Below, in pieces: positions 12,130 to 34,794 of a DNA stretch of 44,966 bases. The stretch comes from Pirellulaceae bacterium (lineage in GTDB: Bacteria > Planctomycetota > Planctomycetia > Pirellulales > Pirellulaceae). How positions within the stretch are numbered: position 1 is the stretch's first letter; the number at the start of each line of letters is the position of its first letter. The notes below the pieces were generated by a model. The model worked only from the letters and a program-made list of their open reading frames with translations, was not told the DNA's origin and ran no database searches. The stretch is from positions 1 to 44,966 of the forward strand of contig JAUXWY010000494.1 of assembly GCA_030681235.1 (NCBI GenBank). The letters run 5' to 3'. Both the position numbers and the translations under genes were made by a program.

Positions 12130-12148
12130 ACATGGTCAGCGATGAGAG

Positions 12149-12517
12149 TTAATTCAACTTTCGCACGAACTGGCACCCGATCAACCAGCGACCATCTTCG
12201 ACTTGCTTGGAATGGCGCACGGTGGCCAAAAGAAATTTTAGAGGTACGGTGCCAATGGCCACGGTGATGTGGGAGCACGCGGGTTGGTGAGGGCTAAAGT
12301 AGGCGATCCCGTTCGAACTAATGTCGAAGCACTCGCGTTTTTCGAAATCGTTCGAAGTGAGGCGACTGGGATCTTCCCCACATTCGGCCACCAATTGAGT
12401 GGTCTGAAATGCTTTTCGTTCCAACCTGCGCCGTTCAAACGACTCGGCCCGTCCTTGCTCATCAAGCAAGAAATGCAGGTGCTCGAATACAACGGTGTCG
12501 TTACCTTGCAGGCTCAT
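12149..12517 (-). CDS. PilZ domain protein
   Basis: The 122-residue protein is essentially one PilZ domain, the family of cyclic-di-GMP receptors. The arginine motif appears in ERRRLERKAF (about 28-37), the second motif as FDISSNGIAYF (equivalent of D/NxSxxG), and the C-terminal barrel strand as LLATVRHSKQVEDGRWLIGCQF. Together they suggest a functional ligand site. It has no membrane segment or second domain. The gene lies tail-to-tail with the glycosyltransferase gene, and control of polysaccharide synthesis by c-di-GMP is an attractive but unproven link. Confidence 0.85.
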   Translation of the reverse strand: MSLQGNDTVVFEHLHFLLDEQGRAESFERRRLERKAFQTTQLVAECGEDPSRLTSNDFEKRECFDISSNGIAYFSPHQPACSHITVAIGTVPLKFLLATVRHSKQVEDGRWLIGCQFVRKLN

Positions 12518-12672
12518 CTATTTTTCCATTCGTGGAAGGGCCGTCTGCGGCTATCCATGATACAAAGATGGGTCAAACTTGACCGCTCAACGAACGGCGA
12601 TTGGCGGTCGGAATGAGAATGTTAAGAAAACTTGCCGGAAGATTCCGATTGTAGCGAGTGCAACGGCCAACC

Positions 12673-12889
12673 CAGATCGGCGCATCCAAAGGCAATTTAG
12701 CAAGCGCTGGTGTACCGGCTTCAGCCGGCGGGGAGCTGTGAAAACGCTCTTTTTAGCAACCCGCCCGGATCGGCCCGTACAAAGGCAATTTAGCAAGCGC
12801 TGGTGTACCGGCTTCAGCCGGCGGGGAGCTGTGAAAACGCTCTTTTTAGCAACCCGCCGGCTGAAGCCGGTACACCAGCGCTTGCTAAA
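12673..12889. repeat. Long-stem palindromic element with tandem partial duplication
   Basis: A 93-bp unit occurs at 12673-12765 and again at 12766-12858; the 78-bp core (12688-12765 and 12781-12858) is identical. The second unit continues into an inverted arm, giving a perfect 34-bp stem (12789-12822 with 12856-12889, containing CTGGTGTACCGGCTTCAGCC) around a 33-base loop. A related element is at 19511-19650. The gap between the PilZ gene and the lipoprotein gene (12518-12935) holds this element and no recognisable gene. Confidence 0.92.
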
Positions 12890-12935
12890 CCGATACCGCT
12901 CCGGGTTCTCGTATTTTTCTTAAGTGGGGAATTCC

Positions 12936-14288: not shown

Positions 14289-14394
14289 CGCTATAGGCCT
14301 TCCTGGCTTTGCTTCGCTGTGAAGCGGATGTATCCATCCATCCGTCCGGCGGACCTTAGAAAAGTCCGCCCATTCTGTCAATTGAAGTTCTGGC

Positions 14395-15210
14395 TCACCC
14401 GCTAGTCACCGAATCCATAACCCATCGGTTGACATCGCGAAATACCTGATCGCAGCCGATGTCATCACAAGGGTACTGCCGCATCGTTACCGAAAACCCT
14501 GCGGAGTGCAGCAAAATCAAGTTCTCGCACAAGCGTTGCTCCGAAAAGTCGCGGGAGTTGCGGTAATGAGCTAACAGGATCGGAATCTGGCGTGCCGCCT
14601 TCAATCTCGACAGCCAAGGTCCAGTGTTCGGCAGTTCGCCATTGAGGGAAATCACACCCGCGATCCGCTCCTGACACAAGAATGCCAATCGCATGGCCAT
14701 GCATCCACCGAGCCCGGAGCCCATCAAAAAGATCTTCCGTTGATTGATATTCAATCTGGATTGAGCGTTCTGGATCGTCTGGGCCAACGCATCCAGTGAC
14801 GCATGAACCATCGTGTCATGCTGTTGCCATGCTCGCTGGTGCTTGAGTTGGGAGGGTGAGGTGAATGCGCAGCCTACGTAGTTTTGTAAGCTGATCTGCG
14901 GCATGAGTCGATGTAATTGGCCGGCATCTTGTTGCGCATCATGCAGATAGACCAACAACGGGTATGCATAATTTCGTTCGTAACCTGCCGGAATAAATAG
15001 CCGATGGTTTGGCCGAGCCGCGGACAACTGCGGATCTTGGCCGGTTTCCCATTGGTTTGCCGGTCCTACGTTTATCGAATCTGTGTTTGCCGAATTGGTT
15101 TGGTGGGAAGGTATTTCATTGGTAGCCATTTCCATCATGGCTAACGGTCCAAACTGCAATCGGTTCATACGATAGATTCTCGGTGAATGGATCGTCTTGC
15201 AAAACATCAC
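14395..15210 (-). CDS. Alpha/beta-hydrolase-fold protein, probably catalytically inactive
   Basis: The 271-residue product resembles predicted esterases of the carboxylesterase/PHB-depolymerase type: RLFIPAGYERNYAYPLLVYLHDAQQDA is the first strand and oxyanion region, NINQRKIFLMGSGLGGCMAMRLAF the nucleophile elbow, and IPILLAHYRNSRDFSEQRLCENL the acid-loop region. In the elbow GSGLG (164-168) the usual serine position is Gly166, and the region where the catalytic His normally follows (YPCDDIGCDQVF) has no His. The triad therefore seems lost. The start is uncertain: ATGs at 15210, 15168, 15138 and 15129 are in frame and none has a strong Shine-Dalgarno. The role is unknown. Confidence 0.72.
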   Translation of the reverse strand: MMFCKTIHSPRIYRMNRLQFGPLAMMEMATNEIPSHQTNSANTDSINVGPANQWETGQDPQLSAARPNHRLFIPAGYERNYAYPLLVYLHDAQQDAGQLHRLMPQISLQNYVGCAFTSPSQLKHQRAWQQHDTMVHASLDALAQTIQNAQSRLNINQRKIFLMGSGLGGCMAMRLAFLCQERIAGVISLNGELPNTGPWLSRLKAARQIPILLAHYRNSRDFSEQRLCENLILLHSAGFSVTMRQYPCDDIGCDQVFRDVNRWVMDSVTSG

Positions 15211-20760: not shown

Positions 20761-22299
20761 TCAACTTCTCCGACCGACCCCGCGGAGGCCAAAAATCAGT
20801 AGAAACAACAGGCCCGCCCCCACTGGGATCAGCAATAATCCGCTGATGGGCCAGGTTGTGGAAGGCTCGGCGGGTGGACCGGACAGCTGCACATTGCTGG
20901 AAACGAGCAGCGGAGCCCATTGGTCCACGCCGGCCTCTTGGCTACGAAGTGATTGGTAGCTCCATAGTTTGAACAACAGCCCGTCGCCGTTGACCCATTG
21001 TCGAACATCGTCGCCGACCGCGAGGCCCTCGGGTAGCTTGGTCGTGGCAATCACAATTGGAAAATGTTGTTGATACGTAATTTGGCGTTTTTCGTCGAAC
21101 TTCAACCGCAGCGGTCGCGGCAATTGGATCACGCCGTGCAACAGAAAATACTCGGTGATGCCCAATTGAGTGGCGCGGTCGTCTGCTTCGCTGGGGACTC
21201 TCGTGACCTGTTTGATCGTGGCGTGAATTCGAAACGATTGACCGACGAGTTGCTGCGGTTGGCGAATCAAGTCAGTCAGCGGCAGTTCGGTTGCTGCGGG
21301 CGGCGAGAATTTTGAACTGGCTCGAAGCAGTTGATAAAACGGCTCGTTGTCGCTTGCCAGCAGCGGTCGCCGTTGGCTCTTTGCCAACGAGTCCCACAAA
21401 CCAAGGTCAAAACCTTCGCTACCGAGCATCGCCCATGTTTGGGCCGTGCTTTGCCGCGAACGGGTGCGCTCGGTCGGTTGCGGAGTTGGAGCCGGCGAGG
21501 AAGAACGGGATTCGGAGAGCTCCAATAGCCAAAGCAGTGAGTGAATGTTTTTCTCGGGCCACTCGATTCGCTTCGTGATACCCGTTGGCAATGGAGCTTC
21601 GGCCGAAGTATCGGGCGATGGTTCGTTGACGAGCGCTTCAGCTGCCGTCACTTCCAACCGTTTTTCGCCCAATCCAAAGACGAGGGCCGACGCGTGCAGT
21701 GTCGGTCCCGCAGCGTCAGGCTGCCATTCCATTCGACCGTCTTCCAACGTTTGCCAAGGCAAGTTGGTCCAAAGGGCCGGCACATTTTGCGTCAAGATTC
21801 GGACCGATCGAGCGGACGATGTTGCTTCTGCTTCATCCGGTCGAACCAGGCATTCGTAGATCGAAAGAAGATGGACGTCGCCGGGACCTTCGTTTGGTTC
21901 TGACGATGGGATACCCAGGTCGGCGGTTGAATTCGGAAGTGTGTGCTGAACGATTCGTTCGACGGTTCCCGAAATTCGGGCAACGCGGAGCGAGGGACGT
22001 TGCGGCAGCAGCCGAAAGGGACGATCACTGACTTGGTGGAGAGCCAATTGCAAATCCGAGTCTCTCACAAACAAACGATTTTCCGCGAGCAAGCGCCCGT
22101 ACTCGCTGGGTTCCAAGCCCAGCAGATCCGCAACGCGATCGTCGTCGACTTGAGCATGGCGTTCGCTCGCAGCGAAGGCACCGACCCAGGCGACCCCCAA
22201 GAGCAGCGTCATAAGCAGAACGACGGGGGCGCGACGGACGGCCTTGAGTTTGTTTGCTTTTGTCGGCCTTGAGTTTGGCGAAAGACTAGGATTGCTCAT
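20761..22299 (-). CDS. Membrane-anchored protein with OB-like modules, unknown function (A)
   Basis: The ATG at 22299 with an AGGAGA Shine-Dalgarno gives 512 residues; the start overlaps the upstream gene's end by 14 bases, implying translational coupling. One hydrophobic segment near 24-44 (VVLLMTLLLGVAWVGAF) and one at the C-terminus (SGLLLIPVGAGLLFLLIFGL) would place the bulk outside the cytoplasm. Two regions (about 105-175 and 375-480) look like small beta modules beginning RISGTVERIV and RIHATIKQVTRV; the latter block, with EYFL and LLFKLWSYQS...APLLVSSNVQL, resembles the C-terminal module of the neighbouring protein (B). No known domain is recognised; function unknown. A longer frame to 22377 is not supported. 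Confidence 0.8.
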   Translation of the reverse strand: MSNPSLSPNSRPTKANKLKAVRRAPVVLLMTLLLGVAWVGAFAASERHAQVDDDRVADLLGLEPSEYGRLLAENRLFVRDSDLQLALHQVSDRPFRLLPQRPSLRVARISGTVERIVQHTLPNSTADLGIPSSEPNEGPGDVHLLSIYECLVRPDEAEATSSARSVRILTQNVPALWTNLPWQTLEDGRMEWQPDAAGPTLHASALVFGLGEKRLEVTAAEALVNEPSPDTSAEAPLPTGITKRIEWPEKNIHSLLWLLELSESRSSSPAPTPQPTERTRSRQSTAQTWAMLGSEGFDLGLWDSLAKSQRRPLLASDNEPFYQLLRASSKFSPPAATELPLTDLIRQPQQLVGQSFRIHATIKQVTRVPSEADDRATQLGITEYFLLHGVIQLPRPLRLKFDEKRQITYQQHFPIVIATTKLPEGLAVGDDVRQWVNGDGLLFKLWSYQSLRSQEAGVDQWAPLLVSSNVQLSGPPAEPSTTWPISGLLLIPVGAGLLFLLIFGLRGVGRRS

Positions 22300-23938
22300 G
22301 TGACTTCTCCTGCAACTGTTGCTGGGAGGCAAGTTCACGCAGCGACTCTCCGGTGCTGGGGACCTGAGTCCGATCAAGCCAATCGACTTGAGCAGACTCG
22401 CGTTTACGTGCTCCCAGCGGATTGGCGGAGCGATAGCGGGTCGAGTACCAACCGGCCGTTGCCAATCCTACGGCCAACAGCGAGATGCCAGCGATCACCA
22501 TGATCCATTGGCTGGAGTCCAGTGTGGTTTGGGGGGTATCCGGTCGCAGTTCCGTCAATTCCACGGTATCGGTCACGAGCAACGGACAGACGGCGGTCTT
22601 CCCACTGTTGGTCGTGTAGGGGTAGAGCTTGAAGAACAATGCCTCGACGGACGCCATTCGCCGGGGATCCGGAGTTGATTCTGCCATCTGTTTCAGTGTC
22701 GCATCGGAAGTGCAGTAAATGCAGTACGGCCCTTGGCCGCTAACAGCCGGTTGTAGCCACACCACAGCGTATTCGTCTGCGGCCATGGACTTCGCAACAA
22801 CGGGGTCGGACTGTCGAACCAATTCGACGCGGCGAATGGTACCAGTCAGTCGAACACGGTGGCCGCGAAACGCGTTGGGCTGTCCCAGCAAGTTTTGTCG
22901 AGTGATCAGCTCGGCTTTTTCAGGACGCGGCTCGTTGGACGAACGCGGTCGAGCGTTTTGCACGAATCGCAACCATGCGGCACGCTCTTCCGGACGGCCC
23001 AAGCGACTACCGTCGGCGATGGTGCTCAACAGATGCGGGTCCAGAAACTTCTCGCCGAGTAGTTTCCAATGATTGCGGTTGGCGACGGCCTCCGACAGCC
23101 GCAACGATTGGATCGTCGGTGTGGGCGCTTCGGGCGACTCCGCATAGTCGCCCGATTGAATCCGTGGATTCCAAAAAATCGCCAGCCAACGCGAGTGGTC
23201 CGTGATGGCCTGGGCATCGGCGATACTGATCGCTGTGGGCAAATCAAACAGCGGCCGAGTCATGGCGGATGGATTGAGGCTTGGCAGTCCCTCTTCCGGT
23301 CCCTCTTCCGCGATTTCGGTTTCCGCGATTGCGTCTGTACCGAGATCGGAATTCGAACCGTCAACATCCAGAGGATCGGCGTTTCCAGATCCCATTTCGG
23401 GACCGTCGCGGAGAGCAATCGCGTTGAGTTGTTGATCGAGACGTTGGCGAAGGTTCGTTAACTTGGTCAGTGCCGAACGCAAGATGGGTTCCGCCGCGAC
23501 GTTTGGGACGAGGTCCGTGGACCATTGATGGACCGCGTCGACGAAGGCAAATTTCTGTTCGGGCGTCAAACGGTCCAATGCCGTTTTCCAATACACGGCT
23601 TCCAGCGAGAGTGGCAACCTGGGCAATGTTTCGGCGGCTGCCATGGGATTGGGCCAGATCGGATTGAAATCATGTGGCTCGGTCACTGCGGGAAGCGGCT
23701 GCGGCTGATCCGTTTCTGGAGCCGAGTCGTCGCCCGATGGAAGATCGTTTTGTTGGGCCTCATCCATGGCAAAGAGCCACCGCCACGTCTCGGGTCGGCC
23801 CGCGTATTGCATGCACCACACCACTGCAAAAAGCGACCCCACCAACATCATGAGCTTGATCTGCACCTTCCGCGAACCATAATTTGGGGCACGACGCGGG
23901 GAGTCAGGGTCCAGGAAACGGAACGACTGCTGTGGCAT
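22286..23938 (-). CDS. Membrane-anchored protein with OB-like module, unknown function (B)
   Basis: Starting at the ATG at 23938, the 550-residue protein has a membrane segment near 25-44 (LMMLVGSLFAVVWCMQYA), a long acidic, Pro-rich middle and a C-terminal membrane segment (WIMVIAGISLLAVGLATAGWY) followed by a short basic tail. Before the last segment a module RVRLTGTIRRVELV...EYAVVWLQP...FFKLYPYTTNSGK...CPLLVTDTVELTEL parallels protein A, so the two look like diverged tandem paralogues in one operon. The GPYCIYCTSD motif has two Cys that may be disulphide-bonded outside the cytoplasm. It faces away from the ExbB/ExbD operon across a 413-base gap. Function unknown. Confidence 0.8.
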   Translation of the reverse strand: MPQQSFRFLDPDSPRRAPNYGSRKVQIKLMMLVGSLFAVVWCMQYAGRPETWRWLFAMDEAQQNDLPSGDDSAPETDQPQPLPAVTEPHDFNPIWPNPMAAAETLPRLPLSLEAVYWKTALDRLTPEQKFAFVDAVHQWSTDLVPNVAAEPILRSALTKLTNLRQRLDQQLNAIALRDGPEMGSGNADPLDVDGSNSDLGTDAIAETEIAEEGPEEGLPSLNPSAMTRPLFDLPTAISIADAQAITDHSRWLAIFWNPRIQSGDYAESPEAPTPTIQSLRLSEAVANRNHWKLLGEKFLDPHLLSTIADGSRLGRPEERAAWLRFVQNARPRSSNEPRPEKAELITRQNLLGQPNAFRGHRVRLTGTIRRVELVRQSDPVVAKSMAADEYAVVWLQPAVSGQGPYCIYCTSDATLKQMAESTPDPRRMASVEALFFKLYPYTTNSGKTAVCPLLVTDTVELTELRPDTPQTTLDSSQWIMVIAGISLLAVGLATAGWYSTRYRSANPLGARKRESAQVDWLDRTQVPSTGESLRELASQQQLQEKSHEQS

Positions 23939-24351
23939 GGAGACACTCGACCAAAGAACGCAACCCTGCATTAGCAGGATTGGGTCGTGAACAGAAACCG
24001 AGAAAACGTGCGGAAGCCGCCGTGGGTAGTGTACCAAACTTCCGCCTAGTTGATAGAATTGATACGAGCGATGCAGTCGCACCTGTCGCCCTGGGCGGCC
24101 TTTTCCAAGTGTGATTGCAACCGAATTGGTTCATGTTTTGGTTATGATGTGCGAAAGCGAATACCAGCCAGGGAACTGTTTGCTGACCGAGGAGCCGGGA
24201 ATTGCCGCGAAATGCTATAAGCCAACTACAAACGGGTTCGAACCTTGGCGGTCTTTCGGAAGGTCTTCCCGGGTTGCAGTTGGGCTCCACTCGGGCGACT
24301 TTGATCCATGTCGTCGGTGATAAGACAGTCGGGTGGTGGATTTTTCGGCCA
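23939..24351. other. Divergent intergenic region between the protein A/B operon and the ExbB/ExbD operon
   Basis: No gene is supported, although an open frame runs through from 24202 into the downstream gene. A small perfect hairpin CCTGCattaGCAGG is at 23965-23978. TTGCAA at 24115 and TATGAT at 24143 are 22 bases apart, too far for a standard promoter. This region must contain the promoters for both divergent operons, so shared control is possible. Confidence 0.45.
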
Positions 24352-27300
24352 ATGGTGTGGCTGGGACTGGCTTTAGCGGTCGTTTGGATTGGTTCGGGAC
24401 GCTTGTATGGACAGGTGACGGCAGTCCGAGTGGATCAGTTCTTGCAGGCTGCTCGGGAACGCGGTTTCTTTGATGCCGCCGAGTATTATCTGGAGAAGTT
24501 GGCGGCGGACCCGTCGGTGCCGGACGCTCTCAAGAAGGAGATTCCGTTTCGCCGCGCTCAGTTGTTGTTTGAGAAGACTCGGACGTTGAATAACGTGACC
24601 GAATTGAAGCAGGCTTGGGGCGAAGCGGTCGAGATCGCGAATCAGCAATTGTCGAGTTCGTCGGATTTGAATCGTCGATTGCAGGCGATTCAGTTGATCA
24701 CGCAAGTTCATCTCGGTTTGGCGGAATTCCAACGGCGTCAGGCCAAGTTGCCTTGGGAGCGTTTGGCGGAGAGCCCTGTTCATGCCGAAGAGGCTCGGAA
24801 GGAACTAACCAAAGCCGTGGCGGCGTTTTCTCAAGGCAGTTCCTTGTTGTTGGAAGAGTTGCGTGACGCGAGGCGAAGCACCGATCCGGCTCGTCGGGCC
24901 ACTTTTGATGAAAACACCCATCGATTTCTGAACCATTTGGTTTCCAAGATGCTGAACTCGGACCGCGTCGCGTCGACTTACCCGAAGTCGAGCCCCGAGT
25001 TCAAGGAGATGATGGAGAAGTTGGTTGCGGAAAATGCCGAGTATGCCGGCAAGTACAAGAATCCACCTCCGTACGACATGTATTTTCAAATGTACCGCGT
25101 GAAGGCTTTGTTGCAGCTGGGCAAGTGGCAGGAAGCAGCACCGGTCATCGACGACATTTTGTTGCTGGACGCCAGTTATTATCGGCCTCTGAAACGTGAA
25201 GTCGTATTGTTGGGGTTTGACGTTTGGTTTCGCGAGGCTCCTTTCAAGATCGAGTTGGCGCTAGCTCAGTTGGAAAAAATTGCCGGCGAGTTGACCGAGG
25301 CCGAAATGAGCAACGAAATGAGCCAACGAATCAAGTTGGCTCTGGCGAAAGCCCATCATCAGCGGAGGGTCTTCACAGATTCCCTCGACGTGCCGACCCC
25401 CGAACAACGGGTGGCCGCGAATGTGTCGTCGCGTCTGCGAAGCGACATCGCTCGGCAATTGGCCAAGCTCAACTCGCCGGTCGCGGACGAAGCACGTGAG
25501 TTGTTGAAAGAATGGGGAATGAGGGGCCCGGCCGAAAACGTGAAGGAAGTCAGTACTTTTGGCGAGGCCAAGCAAGCGGGCTTGGACCTGTTACTCCAAG
25601 CCATCGAATTGCAATCGCAATTGGCGAAACTTTCGGAAAGCGATTCGCAACTGCCCGAGAATCAAGCGCTGCGCGATGAAATGTTGGCTCAGGCGAATCA
25701 GACGCTGAGTTGGTTGGATCGCAGTCTCGAGTTGGCAACGAGCGAAACCCGACGCGTGGATTTGAACATGGTTCGATTGTATCAATGTCAAGCGTATTGG
25801 GTCAAAGGCTACTATCTGGAGACGGCGTTGATTGGCCAGTTTCTGTTGGATCGCTTTCCCGCAGAGTTGGGAACGGCGGAGGCAGCTGCCTTGGCAGCTC
25901 AAAGCTTGAATCGACTCGTGTTGGCGCGAAAAGCGGAAGGCGTCTCCGTGGATGTCGAGCAGCGACAAATGGTCCATATCTGTCAACTGGTTTTGAAACG
26001 CTGGCCCGAACGCAAGGAAACTGGCGACGTGGCATTTATGTTGATCACGACCGAATTGGATCGCAAGAATTTTTCGGCCGCGCAAGCAGTCCTCACGCAA
26101 CTCTCGACCGACAATCCTCGGCGACCTTTGGCGGAACTGCGGATGGGGATCGCATCATTGCAAGAGGCCGATGTGATTGGGCGGTTGGAGGCGGCGACAC
26201 CAGAACAATTGCAACAGCTCGATGAGCGGCGGCGCCAGGCTCAGGAGTGGTTGACCTCGGCGTTGGCGGCATCCAAGAGCGAATTCACATCGCTGCATTT
26301 TGTGGGCGCGGCGGCTTTGGCGCAAGTGTTGAATGACCAGAGGCGTTTTGCCGACACTTTGCAATTGCTGGAACAACCGCCCTTGGCCGGTTTGCCGCGT
26401 GTGGAACAAAACGATCCCTTGGTTGCCGATGTCAACGTACAGACCAACATGATTCAAAGCGCCGTGATTGCGTACATGGGACGGATGAGCGAAGGGGGCG
26501 ATGTCGCAGCGACCACGGATCGAGTGGCCGGGCTGTTGGCCTTGTTGCAATCGCGACTGCAAAACCATCCCCGAGCCGTGCCGATCTTGCAGTCCTATTA
26601 TTCGTTGACGCTCCGGAAACTGCGGGAGCAGGTCGCGGGCGATCTCAGCGACGAAGCACGTAGAAATTTGACCAACGCCACGGTGAAAATCTTCGATCCG
26701 ATCATCGGGCCGTCGGATGATTGGCGTTTGGTATCGATCTTGGGCGAGACCATGCTGGGAATGGCGGAGTCGCTCCCGGCGTCGCAGCAGGCATTGCGAA
26801 CGCAGACGCTGGAATCCGCCACCCGCTGTTACGACCAAGCGTTGAAGTTGACGGCCGACCAGGCTCAGGACGCGGAAGTCGCGAAGTTCCGTTTGATGTT
26901 TCAGGTCAAGTCGGCGACCGCGCTGCGCGGCCAAGGTAAATTCGAACCAGCCAGGACGCAGTTGACGAATCTGTTGAAAGCCAATCCCAAAAATCCTTTG
27001 ATACAGATTGAACTGTGCGAACTGTACCAACAGTGGGGGATTGCCTCAAAAGATCGGGCCCATTTGCGGACGGCGTTGATGGGGCAGGGTAAGGGAACCG
27101 AGGCCGAGATCTGGGGGTGGCAAAAATTGGCCCAGGCGACCATCGCCGATACGAAAAATCGCAACACGTTTTATCAATCGCTGTACGGAATGGTCACGTG
27201 CCGATTTCAATTCGGCAAATTGGCCGGCGATGAAAAGTACATCGAAGCCGCGCTGAAGGCTGTCAAGGATCAAGTCGAGCGAGACAAGACCTTGGGTGGG

Positions 27301-27387
27301 GCGGAATGGTTCGGACGCTTCGACCGGTTGGTCAAAGAAATTCAACAGCATGCCAAGAAGACAGCCAATGGAATCCAGGGTTTATAG
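24352..27387 (+). CDS. Large exported helical-repeat (TPR-like) protein
   Basis: With the ATG at 24352 the protein has 1011 residues and begins with a signal peptide (MVWLGLALAVVWIGSGRLYGQ) ending in a likely cleavage site after Gly-Gln. The rest is almost entirely alpha-helical, with many helix pairs of TPR character (AEYYLEKLAAD, YYLETALIGQFLLDRFP, FADTLQLLEQ, AQLTNLLKANPKNPLIQIELCELYQQWG), and no catalytic motif. A frame continues upstream to 24202 but would hide the signal peptide. It is the first gene of the ExbB/ExbD operon; the next gene starts 16 bases later. A periplasmic scaffold driven by, or delivering cargo to, the ExbB/ExbD motor is a reasonable inference. Confidence 0.85.
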   Translation: MVWLGLALAVVWIGSGRLYGQVTAVRVDQFLQAARERGFFDAAEYYLEKLAADPSVPDALKKEIPFRRAQLLFEKTRTLNNVTELKQAWGEAVEIANQQLSSSSDLNRRLQAIQLITQVHLGLAEFQRRQAKLPWERLAESPVHAEEARKELTKAVAAFSQGSSLLLEELRDARRSTDPARRATFDENTHRFLNHLVSKMLNSDRVASTYPKSSPEFKEMMEKLVAENAEYAGKYKNPPPYDMYFQMYRVKALLQLGKWQEAAPVIDDILLLDASYYRPLKREVVLLGFDVWFREAPFKIELALAQLEKIAGELTEAEMSNEMSQRIKLALAKAHHQRRVFTDSLDVPTPEQRVAANVSSRLRSDIARQLAKLNSPVADEARELLKEWGMRGPAENVKEVSTFGEAKQAGLDLLLQAIELQSQLAKLSESDSQLPENQALRDEMLAQANQTLSWLDRSLELATSETRRVDLNMVRLYQCQAYWVKGYYLETALIGQFLLDRFPAELGTAEAAALAAQSLNRLVLARKAEGVSVDVEQRQMVHICQLVLKRWPERKETGDVAFMLITTELDRKNFSAAQAVLTQLSTDNPRRPLAELRMGIASLQEADVIGRLEAATPEQLQQLDERRRQAQEWLTSALAASKSEFTSLHFVGAAALAQVLNDQRRFADTLQLLEQPPLAGLPRVEQNDPLVADVNVQTNMIQSAVIAYMGRMSEGGDVAATTDRVAGLLALLQSRLQNHPRAVPILQSYYSLTLRKLREQVAGDLSDEARRNLTNATVKIFDPIIGPSDDWRLVSILGETMLGMAESLPASQQALRTQTLESATRCYDQALKLTADQAQDAEVAKFRLMFQVKSATALRGQGKFEPARTQLTNLLKANPKNPLIQIELCELYQQWGIASKDRAHLRTALMGQGKGTEAEIWGWQKLAQATIADTKNRNTFYQSLYGMVTCRFQFGKLAGDEKYIEAALKAVKDQVERDKTLGGAEWFGRFDRLVKEIQQHAKKTANGIQGL

Positions 27388-27403
27388 ATCCACTAGGAAG
27401 ACG

Positions 27404-28456
27404 ATGACGATGATGTTGATGAGAATCGTATTTGCGGTCGGTGCGTTCGCCTGCCTGACTGGCGGTATCACTTGGGCCCAACTTGAAACCGTTGTGAAGT
27501 TGGATGGATCGCGAGTTACCGGGAAGATGCTCGAGATGTCGGCGGCCGAGGTCAGCATCGAACGCAACCGTCAAACGACGAAGATCCCTGTCCAAGAGAT
27601 CGATCATATTCGTTTCTCGGACGAACCGACCCGAATGAATCAAGTGCGGGAGCGGATTAGCAATCGGCAGTTCGAGCAAGCCGCGAAGGAACTGACCGGT
27701 ATGAGTTGGGAAGGCTTACGTCCGGAAACCGTGTTGGATGGAATGTACTATTCGGCACTGGTGAAAGCCGAGTTGGCATTGACAGGCGTCCCAGGCAACT
27801 CGTTGGCGGATGCCGTGGGGTTGTTGCGGCGATTCCAGGAAAACGGGAAGAATCATTTTCAGTACAATCGGGGCACGCTCCTCTACGGGCAATTGGCGTT
27901 CTCCGCGGATCGGTTGCCTTTGGCGATTGAGACGTTTCAATCATTGACGGGTGTGCCCGATAAAGTGACGGCATTGCAGGCTCATTTGGAATTGGGCAAC
28001 GCTCTGTTGCTTGATAAGAAATATTCCGACGCTGCCCAAGCCTACAAAAAGGCTGCGGAGTTCGACCTTGCCGATGCCCAAAGTTTGCGGCTCAAGCAAA
28101 CGGCTCGCATCATGGGACATGTGGCGGACGCCGGAGCCGGGAGCATCGATGCGGCAGTGACGGCGATACAGGCGATTATCGCCAACGAAAGTCCGGACGA
28201 TGTGTATTTGAACGCGATGGCTTACAACGCCTTGGGCAGGTTGCAGTTTCAAGCCAACCAACCTCGGGATGCGGAGTTGTCGTACTTGCACACGGAACTG
28301 TTATTCGCGGCAAATTCTCAAGCTCATCCGGAGGCGTTGTTCTATTTGATCAAAATCTGGTCGGATACAGGCAAGACCGATCGGGCGACCGAGGCGCGCG
28401 AGAAGCTGAAAGGTCGGTACGGCGGAACGTATTGGGCCACGAAAATAACCAACTGA
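27404..28456 (+). CDS. Exported SH3-like/TPR protein
   Basis: The ATG at 27404, after TAGGAAG, gives 350 residues with a signal peptide ending around ITWAQ (residue 22). A short beta domain follows (VVKLDGSRVTGKMLEMSAAE...IPVQEIDHIRFS), like the small SH3/LSm-like modules found before TPRs in planctomycete proteins. The rest is TPR-like (AHLELGNALLLDKKYSDAAQAYKKA is a canonical helix pair; AYNALGRLQFQANQPRDAELSYLHTE another). Position two of a five-gene operon and export signal suggest a periplasmic partner of the upstream 1011-residue protein. No enzymatic motif is visible. Confidence 0.82.
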   Translation: MTMMLMRIVFAVGAFACLTGGITWAQLETVVKLDGSRVTGKMLEMSAAEVSIERNRQTTKIPVQEIDHIRFSDEPTRMNQVRERISNRQFEQAAKELTGMSWEGLRPETVLDGMYYSALVKAELALTGVPGNSLADAVGLLRRFQENGKNHFQYNRGTLLYGQLAFSADRLPLAIETFQSLTGVPDKVTALQAHLELGNALLLDKKYSDAAQAYKKAAEFDLADAQSLRLKQTARIMGHVADAGAGSIDAAVTAIQAIIANESPDDVYLNAMAYNALGRLQFQANQPRDAELSYLHTELLFAANSQAHPEALFYLIKIWSDTGKTDRATEAREKLKGRYGGTYWATKITN

Positions 28457-28594
28457 TCGCCCCGTTTGCCGGCTGGGAGGGTGAGCTTTTGGTCCGACAG
28501 GGGATCGTCAGGCAAACTCCGCTTCATTATTATCTGGGACAGTCACAGGCAGAATGGGAATCGAAAGTCTCCTTCAGACAAGGTTGAATCGCAA

Positions 28595-29422
28595 ATGATT
28601 TGTTTGGGAAATAAGCGCGAATATACGCAATGGCTGGCCATTGCGGGGTTGGCTCTGGGGATTGCCATGGCTGCGTCGTGGGGTGTGTCGTGGTTCGAGA
28701 CTGGCGCAACCGTATGGGCGCAGGATGCTGCCGCGAATCCTGCCCCGCCCGCGGGTGGCGCGGATCCGGCGACCGGCGGCAAGCGAGTGTACCTGTTGCA
28801 GTGGATCTACGAAGCGCTTGGGATCACGTACATCTTGGTGTTCATGATCTTGAGCTTTACTTTGGGCGCGTTCTTCGTAATGAACTTTTTGTCATCGCGC
28901 CGCGGAACGATCTGTCCACCTCAATTGGCCGAACAGTTCGAACAGCAACTGGATGCAAAACAGTATCAAGAAGCTTATGAAACGGCCAAAGCCGACGAAT
29001 CGTTCTTGGGCCAAGTCTTGGCGGCGGGCATGGCACGTTTGCAGTCGGGATATGCGAAGTCCATCGAGGCGATGCAGGAAGTTGGCGAAGACGAGGCCAT
29101 GAAGTTGGAGCATCGACTCAGCTACATGGACCTGATCGCGAGGATTGCCCCAATGGTCGGCTTGTTTGGGACGGTTGATGGGATGATTCGGGCGTTTCAA
29201 AAGATTTCGGAATCGGGTGGTACGCCCGACCCAACCCGGTTGGCCATGGATATCGCGACGGCACTGGTGACCACATTGTTGGGATTGGCGATTGCGATTC
29301 CGGCGATGGTGGCGTACACCGTTTTGCGAAATCACGTTCATCGATTGGTGCTCGAGGTTGGTATGACTGCCCAAGAATTGATGAATCGCTTTGAGAGCGT
29401 GTCGACGGAAAAACGTTCGTAG
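28595..29422 (+). CDS. ExbB/TolQ/MotA-type proton-channel protein
   Basis: The 275-residue product has a long N-terminal extension with a signal-peptide-like or membrane segment (about 12-32) and a Pro/Ala-rich linker, then the ExbB/TolQ core: membrane helix at 78-99, a cytoplasmic helical part, and the paired helices around IAPMVGLFGTVDGMIRAF and IATALVTTLLGLAIAIPAMVAY. Such proteins form pentamers that with ExbD dimers use the proton gradient to drive envelope processes. The N-terminal extension ending in WAQDAA suggests cleavage by signal peptidase, as in other planctomycete ExbB relatives. Start at 28595 is chosen as the first ATG that gives a signal-like N-terminus; upstream codons to 28466 are in frame but unsupported. 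Confidence 0.9.
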   Translation: MICLGNKREYTQWLAIAGLALGIAMAASWGVSWFETGATVWAQDAAANPAPPAGGADPATGGKRVYLLQWIYEALGITYILVFMILSFTLGAFFVMNFLSSRRGTICPPQLAEQFEQQLDAKQYQEAYETAKADESFLGQVLAAGMARLQSGYAKSIEAMQEVGEDEAMKLEHRLSYMDLIARIAPMVGLFGTVDGMIRAFQKISESGGTPDPTRLAMDIATALVTTLLGLAIAIPAMVAYTVLRNHVHRLVLEVGMTAQELMNRFESVSTEKRS

Positions 29423-29481
29423 GTTCCGTGGGCGTGTCGTTCAGCTGTGTGGCGGGGAAGCGGATTTAGGAGAGCAGTTCG

Positions 29482-29931
29482 ATGAAACTGAACCGGCGGA
29501 AGTCCGAACCCGAGAAGGTCGACCTTACGGCCATGATCGACATGACGTTCCAGTTGATCGCGTTTTTTATGATCTTGATCAACTTCTCCGAAGTGGACCG
29601 CAGCGAAGATATTGAATTGCCGTTGAGCGAGTTGGCCAAACCGCCGCGCGAGGCTGCTGCCCACGAAATGGTGTTGAACCTCTTGCCGGATGGGGGTGTG
29701 ATTTACTCCAGTCATCAGTTGGCTCGTGGCGATCTCCTCAAGCCGTATTTCGAACGAAAAATTCGGGACGCCAAACGAGAAGGCCAAGAACCGTCGGACA
29801 TTCGGATCGTGATTCGGGCTCATGAAGACACGCCGACTGGGAAAGTTCAAGAGCTGATGGCCGAATGCGAAAAAGCGAGTTTATCGAATTTCGCATTGCG
29901 GGTCAAAGAACGAGTGTTGGGAACCCAGTAG
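29482..29931 (+). CDS. ExbD/TolR-type protein (first copy)
   Basis: The 149-residue protein is a bitopic ExbD/TolR subunit: a basic N-terminus (MKLNRRKSEPEKVDL), the conserved TAMIDMTFQLIAFFMILINF helix with the proton-carrying Asp20, and a periplasmic domain. AGGAGA precedes the ATG. It follows the ExbB-like gene by 59 bases and precedes a second ExbD by 22 bases. Two different ExbD copies suggest a heterodimeric stator rod rather than the usual homodimer. Confidence 0.92.
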   Translation: MKLNRRKSEPEKVDLTAMIDMTFQLIAFFMILINFSEVDRSEDIELPLSELAKPPREAAAHEMVLNLLPDGGVIYSSHQLARGDLLKPYFERKIRDAKREGQEPSDIRIVIRAHEDTPTGKVQELMAECEKASLSNFALRVKERVLGTQ

Positions 29932-29953
29932 AAGAATCTTAGAGAAGGTCGAC

Positions 29954-30454
29954 ATGTTTACGAAGTCGCTCAAAGGAACGACCAAAGCGCCCGAACTGGA
30001 AATGACACCGATGATCGACATCGTGTTTCAGTTGTTGGCGTTTTTCGTCATGACATTCCGCATAACGGCATTGGAAGGCGACTTCAATATCCAAATGCCG
30101 ATCCAAACGCAGGCTCAGTCGGAATTAGAGGACCTGGATCGTCCGGTCGTGGTGACCCTGCGATCAGGTGTCAACCGCCGTTTGGCTGGGATCAAGGTCG
30201 ACGACCTGCCCGAATACGTGGGGCAGGACATGTTCCGGCAATTGGCCACGGAAATTCAACAAAGGGCCGAGCGCCAGCGCGATCCAGCCTCCGACACCAA
30301 GTTGATTGTCGAGTTTGTGATCGACTACGATTTGCGATATTCGGAGACGATTTCCGCAGTGACCGCTGTGACAGGTCGCAAGCTGCCCTCCGGGGAAACG
30401 CAGCAGTTGGTCGATTCGATCAAGTTCCGTGATCAAGGCGCAAGATTGGATTGA
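29954..30454 (+). CDS. ExbD/TolR-type protein (second copy)
   Basis: A 166-residue ExbD/TolR subunit with the canonical LEMTPMIDIVFQLLAFFVMTFRI helix (proton-carrying Asp22) and a periplasmic domain about 120 residues long. GAGAAGG lies upstream of the ATG. It differs from the first copy in its periplasmic part, arguing for division of labour rather than simple redundancy. The 3' end overlaps the convergent sigma-factor-like gene by 22 bases. It is the last gene of the operon; no TonB, TolA or TolB gene follows. Confidence 0.92.
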   Translation: MFTKSLKGTTKAPELEMTPMIDIVFQLLAFFVMTFRITALEGDFNIQMPIQTQAQSELEDLDRPVVVTLRSGVNRRLAGIKVDDLPEYVGQDMFRQLATEIQQRAERQRDPASDTKLIVEFVIDYDLRYSETISAVTAVTGRKLPSGETQQLVDSIKFRDQGARLD

Positions 30455-31806
30455 TCGTCGGGCTCGGAGAACTTTCGGACGGCAAGTTCAATTTCGCGAC
30501 TGACGCGGTCCGGTAGCCAAGCATAACGAGCGGCAAACGCCAGCGAGTGATGGCGTTGTTCGGCAGGCAATGACGTGATCGTGAGATCTAAAGCGTTCTT
30601 GGCCCGCGCGATGACCAATGCGTAGAGCGCGTGGTAGATTTCTTGCAGGAGCTTGTGCTCGCGCTGCCCATTTTCCCGGGCCAACTTCTTGATGGACTGC
30701 AAGTCTTGGACCGATGGCGAAGGTGCAAAGATGAGTCCTTCAATGGAACTTGGCCTCGTCCTGTCGGTGCCACTTTGACTGCCGGGATGCGGTTGATATT
30801 CCCGTCGCATCAACAGTTGCCATAGTTCTCTTGTTTCCCGTTCGTCGAAATCGGTGGTGGGGGCTGTCAATAGATCAATCACTTCATCGCGCGGTAAGTC
30901 GTCGGGGGACGCCAAGGAAAACACGTTGCAGGTGTCCAAAGTTGATTCAGCGAAAAAGTCCGGCAGATCGGCCAATAAGTCTGGCAGTGAAACATTGCCC
31001 AAGACCAGGATCGATCGCAGGTCCTGAAACAGAACTTCCGGATCGGCACCGGGGCTCGAGTCGGCCAAAGCCTGTCGCAAATGACAGGCAAACAACTCTC
31101 GGACTTGCTGGGCTCGATACAATACCTGATCGCGACTGAGGCCCAACCGAGCGGCAATTTCTGCGGCTGTGAATTTCCGCCCGCGAACCACGTGCCGCAC
31201 CGAAGGAGATACAAACTTTTCTACAAAGACCTGCCAAGTGAGCAAGCGTGATTCTCGATCGGAACGAGCGTTCTTGTCTTCGCGGTTCGGGGTGGCTTGA
31301 TCGCCGATCAGGGAAGTCTTCAGGTCGTGAATCGCGATTTGGAGCACCGAAACGGCCCAAGCATAGTCGACGGGATCGAGTGGAGGCATTGAAACCGATT
31401 GCTCGTGAGGTGTCGTTTCTCGCAGCTCTTGCATGAATTGTTCGGGACGTCGTCGTCGCCGCGCATCGATAAAATGATGGAGAACACAGGCTTTGAGGAA
31501 CCCAAAAGCTCGGTGCGGTGTGCGGGATACATTGAGCCAATGATGAAGCCGCGAGAAAGCGGTCCGTTTCTGGAACTGCTTGACAAAAAAATCTTGAACA
31601 ACCTCTTCGCTCTCTAGCCGCGTCGCTCCGCGATGAAATAGATATTCCTCTAGATCGGAACGAAAGGTACTCATGATTCTGGAGAAGAAGTGGTTGAATT
31701 CCGCTTCCGTTCCCTGAAAGTCTCCATAGATTGACGCGCTGGAAAGCGAGTCATCATGCGCTCCGCCGGAGTCACCATGCGCTCCGCTGGAGTCATCAAG
31801 CAGCAT
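30433..31806 (-). CDS. ECF-sigma-factor-like protein with long C-terminal extension
   Basis: The 457-residue protein begins with an acidic repeat (three 7-residue units), followed by a sigma region 2-like helix bundle (about 48-118: DLEEYLFHRG...SEEVVQDFFVKQF...AFGFLKACVLHHFIDARRRRR) and a region 4-like helix-turn-helix (about 211-238: FTAAEIAARLGLSRDQVLYRAQQVRELF). The remaining ~215 residues have no recognised domain. A role as an extracytoplasmic-function sigma factor is inferred from these features only; planctomycetes have many such proteins with extensions that may sense signals. AAAGG upstream supports the ATG at 31806, although an internal ATG at 31674 would remove the acidic repeat. 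No anti-sigma factor is adjacent; it overlaps exbD by 22 bases. Confidence 0.7.
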   Translation of the reverse strand: MLLDDSSGAHGDSGGAHDDSLSSASIYGDFQGTEAEFNHFFSRIMSTFRSDLEEYLFHRGATRLESEEVVQDFFVKQFQKRTAFSRLHHWLNVSRTPHRAFGFLKACVLHHFIDARRRRRPEQFMQELRETTPHEQSVSMPPLDPVDYAWAVSVLQIAIHDLKTSLIGDQATPNREDKNARSDRESRLLTWQVFVEKFVSPSVRHVVRGRKFTAAEIAARLGLSRDQVLYRAQQVRELFACHLRQALADSSPGADPEVLFQDLRSILVLGNVSLPDLLADLPDFFAESTLDTCNVFSLASPDDLPRDEVIDLLTAPTTDFDERETRELWQLLMRREYQPHPGSQSGTDRTRPSSIEGLIFAPSPSVQDLQSIKKLARENGQREHKLLQEIYHALYALVIARAKNALDLTITSLPAEQRHHSLAFAARYAWLPDRVSREIELAVRKFSEPDDQSNLAP

Positions 31807-31810
31807 TTGG
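31748..31810 (-). repeat. 21-bp tandem repeat encoding the sigma-like protein N-terminus
   Basis: Units at 31748-31768 and 31769-31789 differ at two bases, and a third diverged unit occupies 31790-31810. The 21-bp length keeps the reading frame and encodes the heptads giving SSGAHGD/SGGAHDD-like residues at the start of the sigma-like protein. Unit number could change the tail length without a frameshift. Confidence 0.75.
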
Positions 31811-32164
31811 CCAGCCTTTCGAGGGGATTGATTGGCGAGTGGGAGTTGGGCTCGGCATTGATCATTCTACAGTTTGGACGCCCAAGTATGGGATGCCAGC
31901 GTGGGAATTTCAACCGTTGTCGCCGCGGCCGGCCGCAAAATGGGGCCATTTCTCCCACCTTCGGCTTTCGGGCGGCCTTGTCCAACGCAAAAGCCAGCCA
32001 ATTTTTCCGCAAGACGAAGAGCCAAACGTCAACAATACTAGTGGTTTCCGACTTGGTTTTACGGTAAACTAGTCGAGTTCCTCCCGGAAACTGTGGTGCG
32101 GAAGTGCCGCTTTATCGTTCACCGGGAACTCATGTTGCTACTTGTAAGTTCGAGGAGAACTCTG
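31811..32164. other. Intergenic region upstream of the double-TRASH gene
   Basis: No gene seen. Two identical ACTAGT palindromes lie at 32037-32042 and 32068-32073, 31 bases apart (about three helical turns), followed by TTCCtcccGGAA and then the GAGGAG Shine-Dalgarno of the next gene. They could be a regulator site, but no protein partner is apparent. Confidence 0.4.
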
Positions 32165-32635
32165 ATGGTATTGAAATCGATGGTTGTGTTCGCTGCTTTG
32201 ACGTGCGCTCTATTTGCTCCAACCGCACACGTCGATGATGAAGTGAAGCCAGAGTTGACGGGTGTAAAGTGCCCGTTGATGCCCAAGAAGGAAGTCAAAG
32301 AGACATTTGCAGTGGACTATGCTGGCACGAAGGTCTACTTCTGCTGCAAGGGCTGCGCTGGGAAGTTCACCAAGGAGCCGGAAAAGTACACTGCGGTTGC
32401 CAACAAGCAGTTGGTCGACACCAAGCTATTCCAGCAAACCGCTTGCCCAATCTCCGGTGGCAAATTGAATGATTCGACTGAAGTCGAAGTTGGTGGAACG
32501 AAAGTAAAGTTCTGCTGCAACAATTGCAAAGGTAAAGTCGAAGGCGAAAAAGACGCCGCAGCTCAATTGGAAATCGTGTTTGCCAAAGATGCGTTTGCCA
32601 AGGGTTTTGCCAAAGTTGAACCGAAGAAAGACTAG
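32165..32635 (+). CDS. Exported double-TRASH (Cys-rich) protein
   Basis: The ATG at 32165, preceded by GAGGAG, gives 156 residues with a signal peptide (VFAALTCALFAPTAH). Two similar units follow: Cys-Pro...FCCKGC and CPISGG...FCCNNC, each with paired cysteines about 28-33 residues apart as in TRASH/YHS-type metal-binding domains. Their cysteines could bind copper, zinc or iron in the envelope. A Lys-rich tail follows. A strong terminator directly downstream indicates a monocistronic transcript. The metal and role are unknown; the assignment is from the motif pattern only. Confidence 0.8.
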   Translation: MVLKSMVVFAALTCALFAPTAHVDDEVKPELTGVKCPLMPKKEVKETFAVDYAGTKVYFCCKGCAGKFTKEPEKYTAVANKQLVDTKLFQQTACPISGGKLNDSTEVEVGGTKVKFCCNNCKGKVEGEKDAAAQLEIVFAKDAFAKGFAKVEPKKD

Positions 32636-32675
32636 TCAACGCGATTATTGGCGTTTTCTCAATCAAACTGCTATC

Positions 32676-32712
32676 AACGGCTCGCTGACAGTGTTCAGCG
32701 AGCCGTTTTTTT
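32676..32712 (+). terminator. Strong Rho-independent terminator
   Basis: A perfect 13-bp stem, AACGGCTCGCTGA (32676-32688) with TCAGCGAGCCGTT (32695-32707), closes a 6-base loop and runs into seven T (32706-32712). It lies 40 bases after the double-TRASH gene and is correctly oriented. Confidence 0.95.
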
Positions 32713-32826
32713 GTGCTTTCATCTTTCGCGGATTGATGAATCCTGGTACTGATAACTCAATCTCCGCCCCACTTCGATTCGATAATTAGGATTGTGGGGT
32801 GGAAGGGATACGAAAGGACTCGGAGG

Positions 32827-33456
32827 ATGAACGGTAAGTTTGGTTGGATCGCGGTTGTGACCCTGTTGATGTGTCCGCAATTGACGGAAGCGCAATGGTC
32901 GACGTCCGAAAAGGGGACGCTCCTGGGCGCTGTCGCGGGCGGCGGCGCGGGTGCAGCCATCGGCAAGAAGTCGGGAAATCCAATCGTGGGGGCGGTGGTC
33001 GGTAGCTTGGGTGGAGCAATCGTCGGAAATGTTATTGGCGATCGAGTCGAACAGCGGCGGGCAGCCGAAGCGTATTACCAACCACGTTACCAACAGAGCT
33101 ATCAAACGTACTATCAACAGCCACCGCAACCGGTGTACCGGAATCCTGGGGTGACGTTGGACCAGGTGATTCAATTGACCCACAGCGGTGTGGGCGATGA
33201 GTTGATTATCTCCCATGTGCAGCAAAACGGCTTTCATCAAGCGTTGACGACCAATGATTTGATCCTGCTCAAGAACCAAGGTGTCAGCGACCGGGTCATC
33301 TTCGCTTTGCAACGTCCGACGACGTATGCGGCACCGGCTGCTCCGCCGATCCGTTACGCGCCGCCGGTGACAGTGGTCGAGGAAGTGCATGTTTTGCCTG
33401 CGCCGACCTACTACTACGCTCGACCGGTACCGGCCTATGGTCATTACTACCGATAG
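32827..33456 (+). CDS. Exported glycine-zipper protein
   Basis: The 209-residue product has a signal peptide ending near LTEAQ, then a glycine-zipper segment (GTLLGAVAGGGAGAAIGKKSGNP and GAVVGSLGGAIVGNVIG) like those of outer-membrane-associated glycine-zipper proteins. A Tyr/Gln/Pro-rich linker (QQSYQTYYQQPPQPVY) and a short helical module (DQVIQLTHSGVGDELIISHVQQNG...LLKNQGVSDRVI) follow, then a Pro/Tyr-rich tail. AAAGGA/GGAGG precedes the ATG at 32827. It may associate with the outer membrane; the precise role is unknown. It is followed 39 bases later by lpxB. Confidence 0.78.
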   Translation: MNGKFGWIAVVTLLMCPQLTEAQWSTSEKGTLLGAVAGGGAGAAIGKKSGNPIVGAVVGSLGGAIVGNVIGDRVEQRRAAEAYYQPRYQQSYQTYYQQPPQPVYRNPGVTLDQVIQLTHSGVGDELIISHVQQNGFHQALTTNDLILLKNQGVSDRVIFALQRPTTYAAPAAPPIRYAPPVTVVEEVHVLPAPTYYYARPVPAYGHYYR

Positions 33457-33495
33457 TCCAGCAGCTACTTCCCTCTGAAACTTGCGGTTCTGTCG

Positions 33496-34794
33496 ATGAG
33501 AGTGTTCATTTCTGCGGGCGAGCCGAGCGGTGACCTACACGGGGCAAATCTCGTCCACGAGTTGCAAGCTGAGGGAGTTCAGTGCGTTGGTTTTGGCGGT
33601 CCGCGGATGCAGGAAGCGGGCTGCCAACTTTATCATGACATGACGCAATATGCCGTGATGTTCTTGCAGGCCTTGAAGTATCTGCCTCAGATTTGGGCCC
33701 AGTATCGGCACGCCGATCGAATTTTTGCCACCGGGCAAATCGACGCCGTCGTCCTGATCGATTTTCCGGGATTCAATTGGTGGGTCGCAAAAGCGGCCAA
33801 ACGCCATCGCGTCCCCGTGTTCTATTATGGCGTGCCCCAAATGTGGGGTTGGTTGCCCTGGCGAGTTCACAAGCTTCGCCGGTTGGTCGATCATGTCCTG
33901 TGCAAGTTGCCATTTGAAGTTCCCTGGTTTGCGGATCGGGGCGTTACGGCTCACTACGTTGGGCATCCGTATTTTGACGAACTTCATCAACGGCAACTGG
34001 ATACAGAGTTTTTGCAGGAGTATGGGGACCCGCGAAGTCCATTGATTACGTTGCTCCCTGGTTCTCGAAACCAGGAGGTCGATGCCAACCTGGAGTGTCT
34101 GCTAGAAACCGCGGTGCGGATCAAGCAGGAAATGCCGCAGGCTAGTTTTGCGGTGGCCTGTTTTCATCCCGCTCAAGCCGAATTCGTACGCCAAGTGGTG
34201 GCCAGTAGCCAATTGCCGATCGATGTATTTGTGAAGCGGACACCGGAGCTCATCGAATTGTCGACCTTGTGCCTCGCTTGTTCCGGGTCGGTGTCGTTGG
34301 AGTTGATGTACCACGAGAAGCCGTCCATCATCGTGTATCGTTTGAAAAGGCTGCAAGCCATAGGCAAGTGGTTTCTGATGACCTGCCGTTTCGTTACCCT
34401 CGTGAATCTGTTGGCGACCGACGACATTAGCCGCAGGGCAGGTCGTCCCGGTGAAGCGACCGGAGGAGATCCCCATGTTCCATTCCCGGAGTTTGCTTGG
34501 TTGAGAAACCCAGCCAAAGAGATGGCTGCCTTGGCCATCGAATGGTTGCGTGACCCACGAGAACTGCAGCGACGTCGACAGCAATTGATCGAACTGAAAG
34601 CCAAATACGCCCGTCCGGGCGCCACGGCGCGGGCCGCTCAGTACCTCGTGGATCAATTTCAAGTGCCTGCCGCTGTCGACGAAATCGCCGACGTGGATCT
34701 CCCGGCATCGATTTCGGGGGCCGCCGCCGCAGCGGCTCGCAAAGCCCAACAACCCGTCGGCAGCCAAGTTTCAAGTAGCCGCCGAGCAGCTTGA
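33496..34794 (+). CDS. lpxB: Lipid-A-disaccharide synthase
   Basis: The 432-residue protein is a GT-B glycosyltransferase (family 19) that joins UDP-2,3-diacylglucosamine to lipid X, making the lipid A disaccharide at the inner membrane. Motifs are FISAGEPSGDLHGANL at the start, FGGPRMQEAGC, DFPGFNWWVAKAAK, YYGVPQMWGWLPWRVHKL, LPGSRNQEVDAN and, near the C-terminus, SGSVSLELMYHEKPSIIVY. The last ~35 residues are an Ala/Ser-rich extension (ISGAAAAAARKAQQ) not usual in the family. Its presence implies a Gram-negative-type lipid A pathway, as in other planctomycetes; other lpx genes are not in the window. Confidence 0.95.
   Translation: MRVFISAGEPSGDLHGANLVHELQAEGVQCVGFGGPRMQEAGCQLYHDMTQYAVMFLQALKYLPQIWAQYRHADRIFATGQIDAVVLIDFPGFNWWVAKAAKRHRVPVFYYGVPQMWGWLPWRVHKLRRLVDHVLCKLPFEVPWFADRGVTAHYVGHPYFDELHQRQLDTEFLQEYGDPRSPLITLLPGSRNQEVDANLECLLETAVRIKQEMPQASFAVACFHPAQAEFVRQVVASSQLPIDVFVKRTPELIELSTLCLACSGSVSLELMYHEKPSIIVYRLKRLQAIGKWFLMTCRFVTLVNLLATDDISRRAGRPGEATGGDPHVPFPEFAWLRNPAKEMAALAIEWLRDPRELQRRRQQLIELKAKYARPGATARAAQYLVDQFQVPAAVDEIADVDLPASISGAAAAAARKAQQPVGSQVSSSRRAA

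Follow-up and report, generated by a model that had tools for sequence, protein, structure and literature searches.

The five-gene operon at positions 24352-30454 of contig JAUXWY010000494.1 from a Pirellulaceae bacterium (assembly GCA_030681235.1; the whole stretch analysed, 44,966 nucleotides, is called the window below) encodes two exported repeat proteins, P1 and P2, followed by an ExbB/TolQ-family protein and two different ExbD proteins. We propose, at about even confidence, that it specifies a TonB-independent envelope machine driven by the proton motive force, in which P1 and P2 act as a periplasmic scaffold and the output is probably a secretin-type pore. The presence of a secretin gene beside the operon in distant relatives suggests that this is a distinct envelope machine.

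The operon and its gene products

The source genome is 6.4 Mb and 92% complete, and the window is one of its contigs (G000:C89). A preliminary description of this DNA had reported five closely packed plus-strand genes; the open reading frames (ORFs) and their coordinates agree with it, the intergenic gaps being 16, 138, 59 and 22 bases with the starts used here.

24352-27387, plus strand: P1, 1011 amino acids (aa), exported tetratricopeptide repeat (TPR)-like alpha-helical repeat protein, found class-wide
27404-28456, plus strand: P2, 350 aa, exported TPR protein; its SH3-like N-terminus is a by-eye impression
28595-29422, plus strand: ExbB/TolQ-family proton-channel subunit, 275 aa, with a cleavable-looking signal peptide
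29482-29931, plus strand: ExbD1 (TolR/ExbD family), 149 aa, Pfam ExbD at 4.4e-16, transmembrane (TM) Asp kept (TAMIDMTFQL)
29954-30454, plus strand: ExbD2, unlike ExbD1, 166 aa, Pfam ExbD at 9.7e-12, TM Asp kept (TPMIDIVFQL)

ExbB matched Pfam MotA_ExbB (PF01618) at 5.7e-29 (100.9 bits against a cut-off of 22.9), one of eight such places in the source genome. Both ExbDs exceeded the PF02472 cut-off of 25.4 (59.6 and 45.5 bits) and each carries the Asp motif, in agreement with the earlier claim of two different ExbDs; across the loci described below, both ExbDs kept this motif in 64 of the 67 with two ExbDs (loose pattern). By homology the motor part appears well founded, because the ExbB profile matches solved TolQ and ExbB structures. 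The signal-like N-terminal extension of ExbB was also borne out, as it is signal-peptide-like and has a near-invariant A-Q site (A42 and Q43 in at least 90% of 20 sequences) preceding the first retained TM helix. At the TM3 position that we take to be Glu176 of Escherichia coli ExbB, 49 of the 64 pattern-fitting ExbBs have Thr and 15 another residue (Glu in one); 19 of the 83 ExbBs fell outside the pattern and are not counted. By eye, the ExbB of locus L120 has Glu at the same position.

The sole Pfam match of P1 above cut-off was TPR_14 (3.9e-5) near its C terminus, so most of the protein is without a domain call; the 1011-residue length given before is correct, the helical repeats are recognized only near this end, and the export of P1, like that of P2, is predicted from reading the N-termini by eye. 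P2 had been described as SH3-like/TPR. Its TPR part is recognized by Pfam (TPR_16, 1.2e-8; found in 20 of 24 members of the P2 family). The SH3-like part did not hold up, as no Pfam match was obtained at the N-terminus of P2 or of the family members scanned, and the AlphaFold model, made from three close sequences, was too poor to judge by (mean pLDDT 56.3; below 50 for residues 10-71).

An origin in a defence system or phage was considered and rejected, since it had just weak matches: PADLOC OloA to P2 (1.8e-4) and PHROG 21194, of unknown function, to ExbB (2e-4).

Conservation of the gene order

P1 is 87 and 79% identical, over its length, to its counterparts in metagenome-assembled genomes of close relatives. 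A single-sequence search found it in 55 of 60 genomes of the order, and the P1 profile added the other five (G051 weakly). In the class, 194 of 198 genomes had matches at an E-value of 0.001 (175 of the 177 good ones), some of them weak (G383, 3.7e-4), and across the phylum 128 of 294 genomes matched, with weak TPR-like matches counted in. All loci were fetched by their P1 match: 58 at the level of the order (from 54 genomes), five of the family f21 and 35 from outside the class. The last were hand-picked among the stronger of 107 matching genomes, many of which match in a weak or TPR-like way; others of similar P1 strength were left out (e.g. G092, G088, G189 and G075), and the sample does not hold P1 loci of family f112.

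The strict five-gene order was observed in 49 of the 58 order-level loci, 4 of the 5 f21 loci and 15 of the 35 loci outside the class. Its frequency in the order indicates that this arrangement is not due to chance. The neighbourhood comparison that had been suggested as a check thus links the repeat proteins with ExbB and ExbD widely, not universally. Outside the class, ExbB was present in 28 of the 35 loci and at least one recognized ExbD in 21. Adjacency of P1 and P2 is nearly universal, with exceptions such as L108, L112, L191 and L196. Nine order-level loci lack the strict order: four run into contig ends (L057, L076, L092 and L098), in L066 the second ExbD lies within a long open ORF, L056 and L093 are extra copies in genomes that also hold a complete operon (G009 and G041), and L073 (G054) and L075 (G053) have P1-P2 alone. 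The incomplete f21 locus is L102. Two loci fetched alongside those of other families, L194 and L195, belong to the family of the window, and both are complete.

No TonB gene in the operon and no TonB_C match in the source genome

The preliminary description had noted an operon without TonB. We found no TonB or TolA gene in it, and no TonB_C (PF03544) match in the source genome or in three congeners (G000-G003). Among the 60 relatives, 30 have TonB_C, at 42 places in all. It shares a contig with P1 in seven of them (G009, G021, G022, G031, G041, G042 and G048; compared by eye), and is never within about 65 kb, the nearest being roughly 70 kb away (G048); in the other 23 genomes the two are on separate contigs. 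Neighbours may be missed at the ends of draft contigs. In at least four genomes (G004, G005, G036 and G044), TonB has another ExbB as a near neighbour, at a distance of 2 kb or less. The operon's own ExbB and ExbD genes next to tonB, the finding that had been named as fatal to the motor proposal, were not seen in any of the 30 TonB_C-bearing relatives.

The operon proteins also missed all the listed NCBIfam cut-offs for Tol and TonB equivalogs. The best score of ExbB was to tolQ (81.2 bits, cut-off 221), the ExbDs reached 25.4 and 22.9 bits to TolR (cut-off 127.3), and P2 matched YbgF weakly (6.5e-7; 30 bits against 90.1). The TPR proteins matched by the P2 profile were many, CpoB (6g5s) and YbgF (2xev) among them.

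Linkage to a secretin in deep lineages

Of the 35 loci outside the class, which were chosen by their P1 match and not by the secretin, 21 contain a secretin gene. In all 21 the first secretin is on the same strand and upstream, of P1 in 19 and, in the two loci without a hit of the P1 profile (L124 and L132), of ExbB. Roughly, far less than one secretin would be expected by chance, as estimated from windows of about 12 kb and the density in the source genome (five secretins in 6.4 Mb), which is not that of the genomes outside the class. These secretins are about 850-1000 aa long and combine TPRs at the N-terminus with a Secretin domain recognized by Pfam. Most also have a lipobox-like Cys; this Cys, close to the N-terminus, is near-invariant, as in lipoproteins. 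Among the 19 upstream secretins aligned, Pfam recognized Secretin in all 19, TPR_2 in 18, STN in two and GspD N0 in one, and their profile matched solved PilQ and GspD.

A second secretin-like gene was found downstream in 11 of the 35 loci (L107, L111, L113, L115, L117, L118, L120, L124, L125, L137 and L138), so that two secretins may flank one motor. Most of these second genes are cut by the locus end, the one in L111 is weak (37 bits), and Pfam was run on one, that of L120. A further gene before the upstream secretin could be aligned in 10 loci and has an N-terminal TM segment wherever its start is present; of three well-formed members scanned, the one in L120 has a Pfam fn3 domain and those in L118 and L119 do not. 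Candidates for this gene in L125, L126, L127 and L138 look like wrong-frame ORFs and were excluded.

In the source genome one protein was clearly the best match of the secretin profile (2e-61; the next at 4e-16). It is 1180 aa long (G000:C26:14446-16839), has a Secretin domain and weak matches to Secretin_N and STN (one of each), and stands alone amid unrelated genes on a separate contig from the operon. The best match was at 1.4e-58 or better in 57 of the 60 relatives (weaker in G002, G046 and G049), and at 8.6e-36 or better in all 18 further genomes of the class. In one f21 genome a secretin gene and P1 share a contig (G314:C33), at 11868-14429 and 30727-33777, which puts them about 16 kb apart.

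A proposed model of the machine

An ExbB pentamer and two different ExbDs, probably as a heterodimer, would form a 5:2 inner-membrane motor; a heterodimer is suggested by the two ExbDs being unlike, as with AglQ and AglS (PMC3169522). That P1 and P2 both appear exported and are nearly always adjacent suggests a periplasmic scaffold, which would replace TonB or TolA as the partner of the motor. The outer-membrane end would probably be a TPR-secretin, whose gene is part of the cluster in many planctomycetes from outside the class and stands apart from it within the class of the window. The secretin as output is drawn from the linkage outside the class and would extend to the window by similarity. 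What the sequences show directly is the gene content, its order and conservation, the lack of a TonB_C match in the 92%-complete source genome and the neighbouring secretin of deep lineages; how the subunits assemble, how P1 and P2 couple to the ExbDs, the action on the secretin and the direction of transport are things that we infer. The earlier reading of a distinct envelope motor is partly supported. It had cast the repeat proteins as the mechanical or cargo partner, which they may be; the secretin, which lay beyond the earlier reader's view, would make a more natural outer-membrane end than they do.

A more specific version, which we put forward tentatively and regard as doubtful, is a secretin machine powered by the ExbB-ExbD-ExbD proton motor, not by a cytoplasmic ATPase, with P1 and P2 coupling the motor to an outer-membrane TPR-secretin lipoprotein. 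In the class of the window such a machine could contribute to the crateriform structures, which connect the two membranes and carry polysaccharide-binding fibres; we know of no proteins assigned to them. Planctopirus and Gemmata have been described as having these structures (PMC5394234) and Phycisphaeraceae as lacking them (PMC8882080). A class-wide P1 would be consistent with such a distribution, as would any gene specific to the class.

Separation of the two apparent modules and of the secretin

Several observations weigh against a single machine built from all these parts. In four families (f111, f113, f114 and f115), none of the 18 P1 loci contains ExbB. P2 follows P1 in 16 of these loci, L177 is cut by a contig end and L191 is without P2. 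The ExbB of the operon subfamily sits elsewhere in these families and scores lower than in the order. Of the 20 such separate ExbB loci fetched, one comes from the order (G054); one or more ExbDs accompany ExbB in 17 of the 20, and in L196 and L198 a second P1-like gene lies directly before the separate ExbB. In one genome of the order (G053, 97% complete) P1-P2 is present and no ExbB of the operon type was found at a high score; outside the class, L104-L106 and L110 have P1 and no ExbB in the locus. The occurrence of P1-P2 without ExbB in four families, with ExbB elsewhere, makes P1-P2 and ExbB-ExbD-ExbD look like two modules that are joined often but not always. The preliminary description would have been undone by repeat genes lying elsewhere in most genomes; this is not the case in the order, in f21 and in many of the loci outside the class, and it does hold for the four families and G053.

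The secretin is also separate in the class of the window, none being seen in the P1 loci fetched from the order (0/58) and from f21 (0/5) or in the window. No neighbour family of the stand-alone secretin is common to more than 4 of 21 loci, though the loci of three congeners have neighbours in common. A quick tree placed the 21 stand-alone secretins in one clade, but long branches meet there, and orthology of the cluster and stand-alone secretins is not shown by it. Moreover, TPR matches can be non-specific.

Neighbouring genes

The operon is flanked in the window by the following genes.

20761-24082, minus strand: two tandem genes diverging from P1, encoding 538 and 598 aa, both with a TM-like stretch at the C terminus
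30433-31806, minus strand: gene converging on ExbD2, with weak similarity to the sigma-70 family (TIGR02985, 5.1e-4, below cut-off)

Neither divergent gene product has a Pfam match above cut-off. The family comprising both is found in 31 loci (29 order-level loci, the window and L104). Genes similar to the converging one lie at the equivalent place in L039 and L040.

Elsewhere in the order, 16 of the 58 loci have a von Willebrand factor A (vWA)-family gene upstream of P1 on the same strand (L045, L047, L057, L061, L062, L064, L065, L069, L070, L071, L076, L077, L090, L094, L095 and L096), with gaps of 10-437 bases, and 1491 in L095; a Pfam VWA match is shown for the protein of L090. The gene often follows one for an extracytoplasmic function (ECF) sigma factor, whose cluster comprises 17 order-level loci and one f21 locus. 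The window is without this pair and has the two divergent minus-strand genes instead. The encoded proteins are possibly membrane anti-sigma factors, because they have repeated LRDVPVP-type segments before a TM helix and often an ECF sigma-factor gene in front.

Alternative explanations

It is unlikely, in our judgement, that the operon encodes an ordinary Tol-Pal-like motor for outer-membrane maintenance, with P2 as a CpoB/YbgF-like coordinator, P1 as an accessory and TolA, TolB and Pal encoded elsewhere. The tolQ score of ExbB and the CpoB and YbgF matches of P2 would be in keeping with such a motor, and near-universal presence suits a housekeeping role, but the missed equivalog cut-offs, the lack of a TolA or TonB gene in the operon, the use of two ExbDs and the secretin linkage outside the class all argue for something else. 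We consider it very unlikely that the operon specifies an Agl/Glt-like machine carrying cargo along the envelope for gliding or surface-polymer assembly, gliding being, to our knowledge, not among the traits of planctomycetes. The composition is similar, in that the AglR-AglQ-AglS motor of Myxococcus combines a TolQ homologue with two of TolR and has exported TPR proteins as partners; however, GltG of that machine has a TonB domain (PMC3169522), for which the source genome has no TonB_C counterpart.

The order TPR-TolQ-TolR-TolR matches a description of motors in the Planctomycetes-Verrucomicrobia-Chlamydiae (PVC) group (TPR-tolQ-tolR-tolR-vWA; PMC12204202), and the true force transducer could then be a vWA protein encoded upstream or elsewhere. 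Both the 16 upstream vWA-family genes and the ECF sigma-factor cluster would accord with this. We rate this explanation as quite unlikely, since the string SHLS, given for many transducers in PMC12204202, was found in 0 of the 16 vWA-family proteins, which resemble membrane anti-sigma factors more. Furthermore, no vWA match was obtained among the scanned neighbours in the window, including the converging minus-strand gene downstream, and the vWA cluster holds no locus from outside the class, where not all neighbours were scanned.

Comparison with known systems

Motors of the 5:2 ExbB/ExbD type are known to act through TonB, TolA, Glt/Gld parts or, as proposed, vWA proteins, and most secretins belong to systems driven by ATPases; a distinct machine would matter for this reason. 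A conserved gene cluster combining such a motor with two TPR scaffolds and a secretin would unite two classes of machine, and it would supply a named gene set for the handling of macromolecules by planctomycetes, whose uptake system has been called still to be characterized (PMC5394234). Motors of the TPR-TolQ-TolR-TolR kind without TonB have been published in part: a paper in Mol Biol Evol 2025 (PMC12204202) describes TPR-tolQ-tolR-tolR clusters from the PVC group, frequently accompanied by a vWA transducer; the word secretin is absent from its main text. We found no published link between secretin and ExbB-ExbD in planctomycetes in the open-licence literature, a scope that makes this absence weak evidence.

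The operon shares with the PVC clusters a TPR gene, a TolQ-like gene and a heterologous TolR pair, and differs from them in having no adjoining vWA gene and two TPR genes, with P1 of about 1000 aa. With the AglR-AglQ-AglS/Glt system of Myxococcus xanthus it has in common one TolQ, two different TolR homologues and large exported TPR partners (GltD, 1191 aa, and GltE, 471 aa; PMC3169522). The Glt set has the TonB-domain protein GltG and candidate outer-membrane barrels, whereas here the linked outer-membrane protein, outside the class, is a secretin; this comparison is one of gene composition. The likeness to TonB-ExbB-ExbD lies in the ExbB and ExbD families and the retained proton-binding Asp, and the difference in the genome having no TonB_C match, in the two ExbDs and in the mostly Thr TM3 position. 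Finally, the cluster secretins resemble GspD and PilQ of type II secretion and type IV pili in the Secretin domain common to all 19 and in matching their solved structures, and are set apart from them by N-terminal TPRs, the rarity of STN and GspD N0 domains (2/19 and 1/19) and their ExbB-ExbD neighbours.

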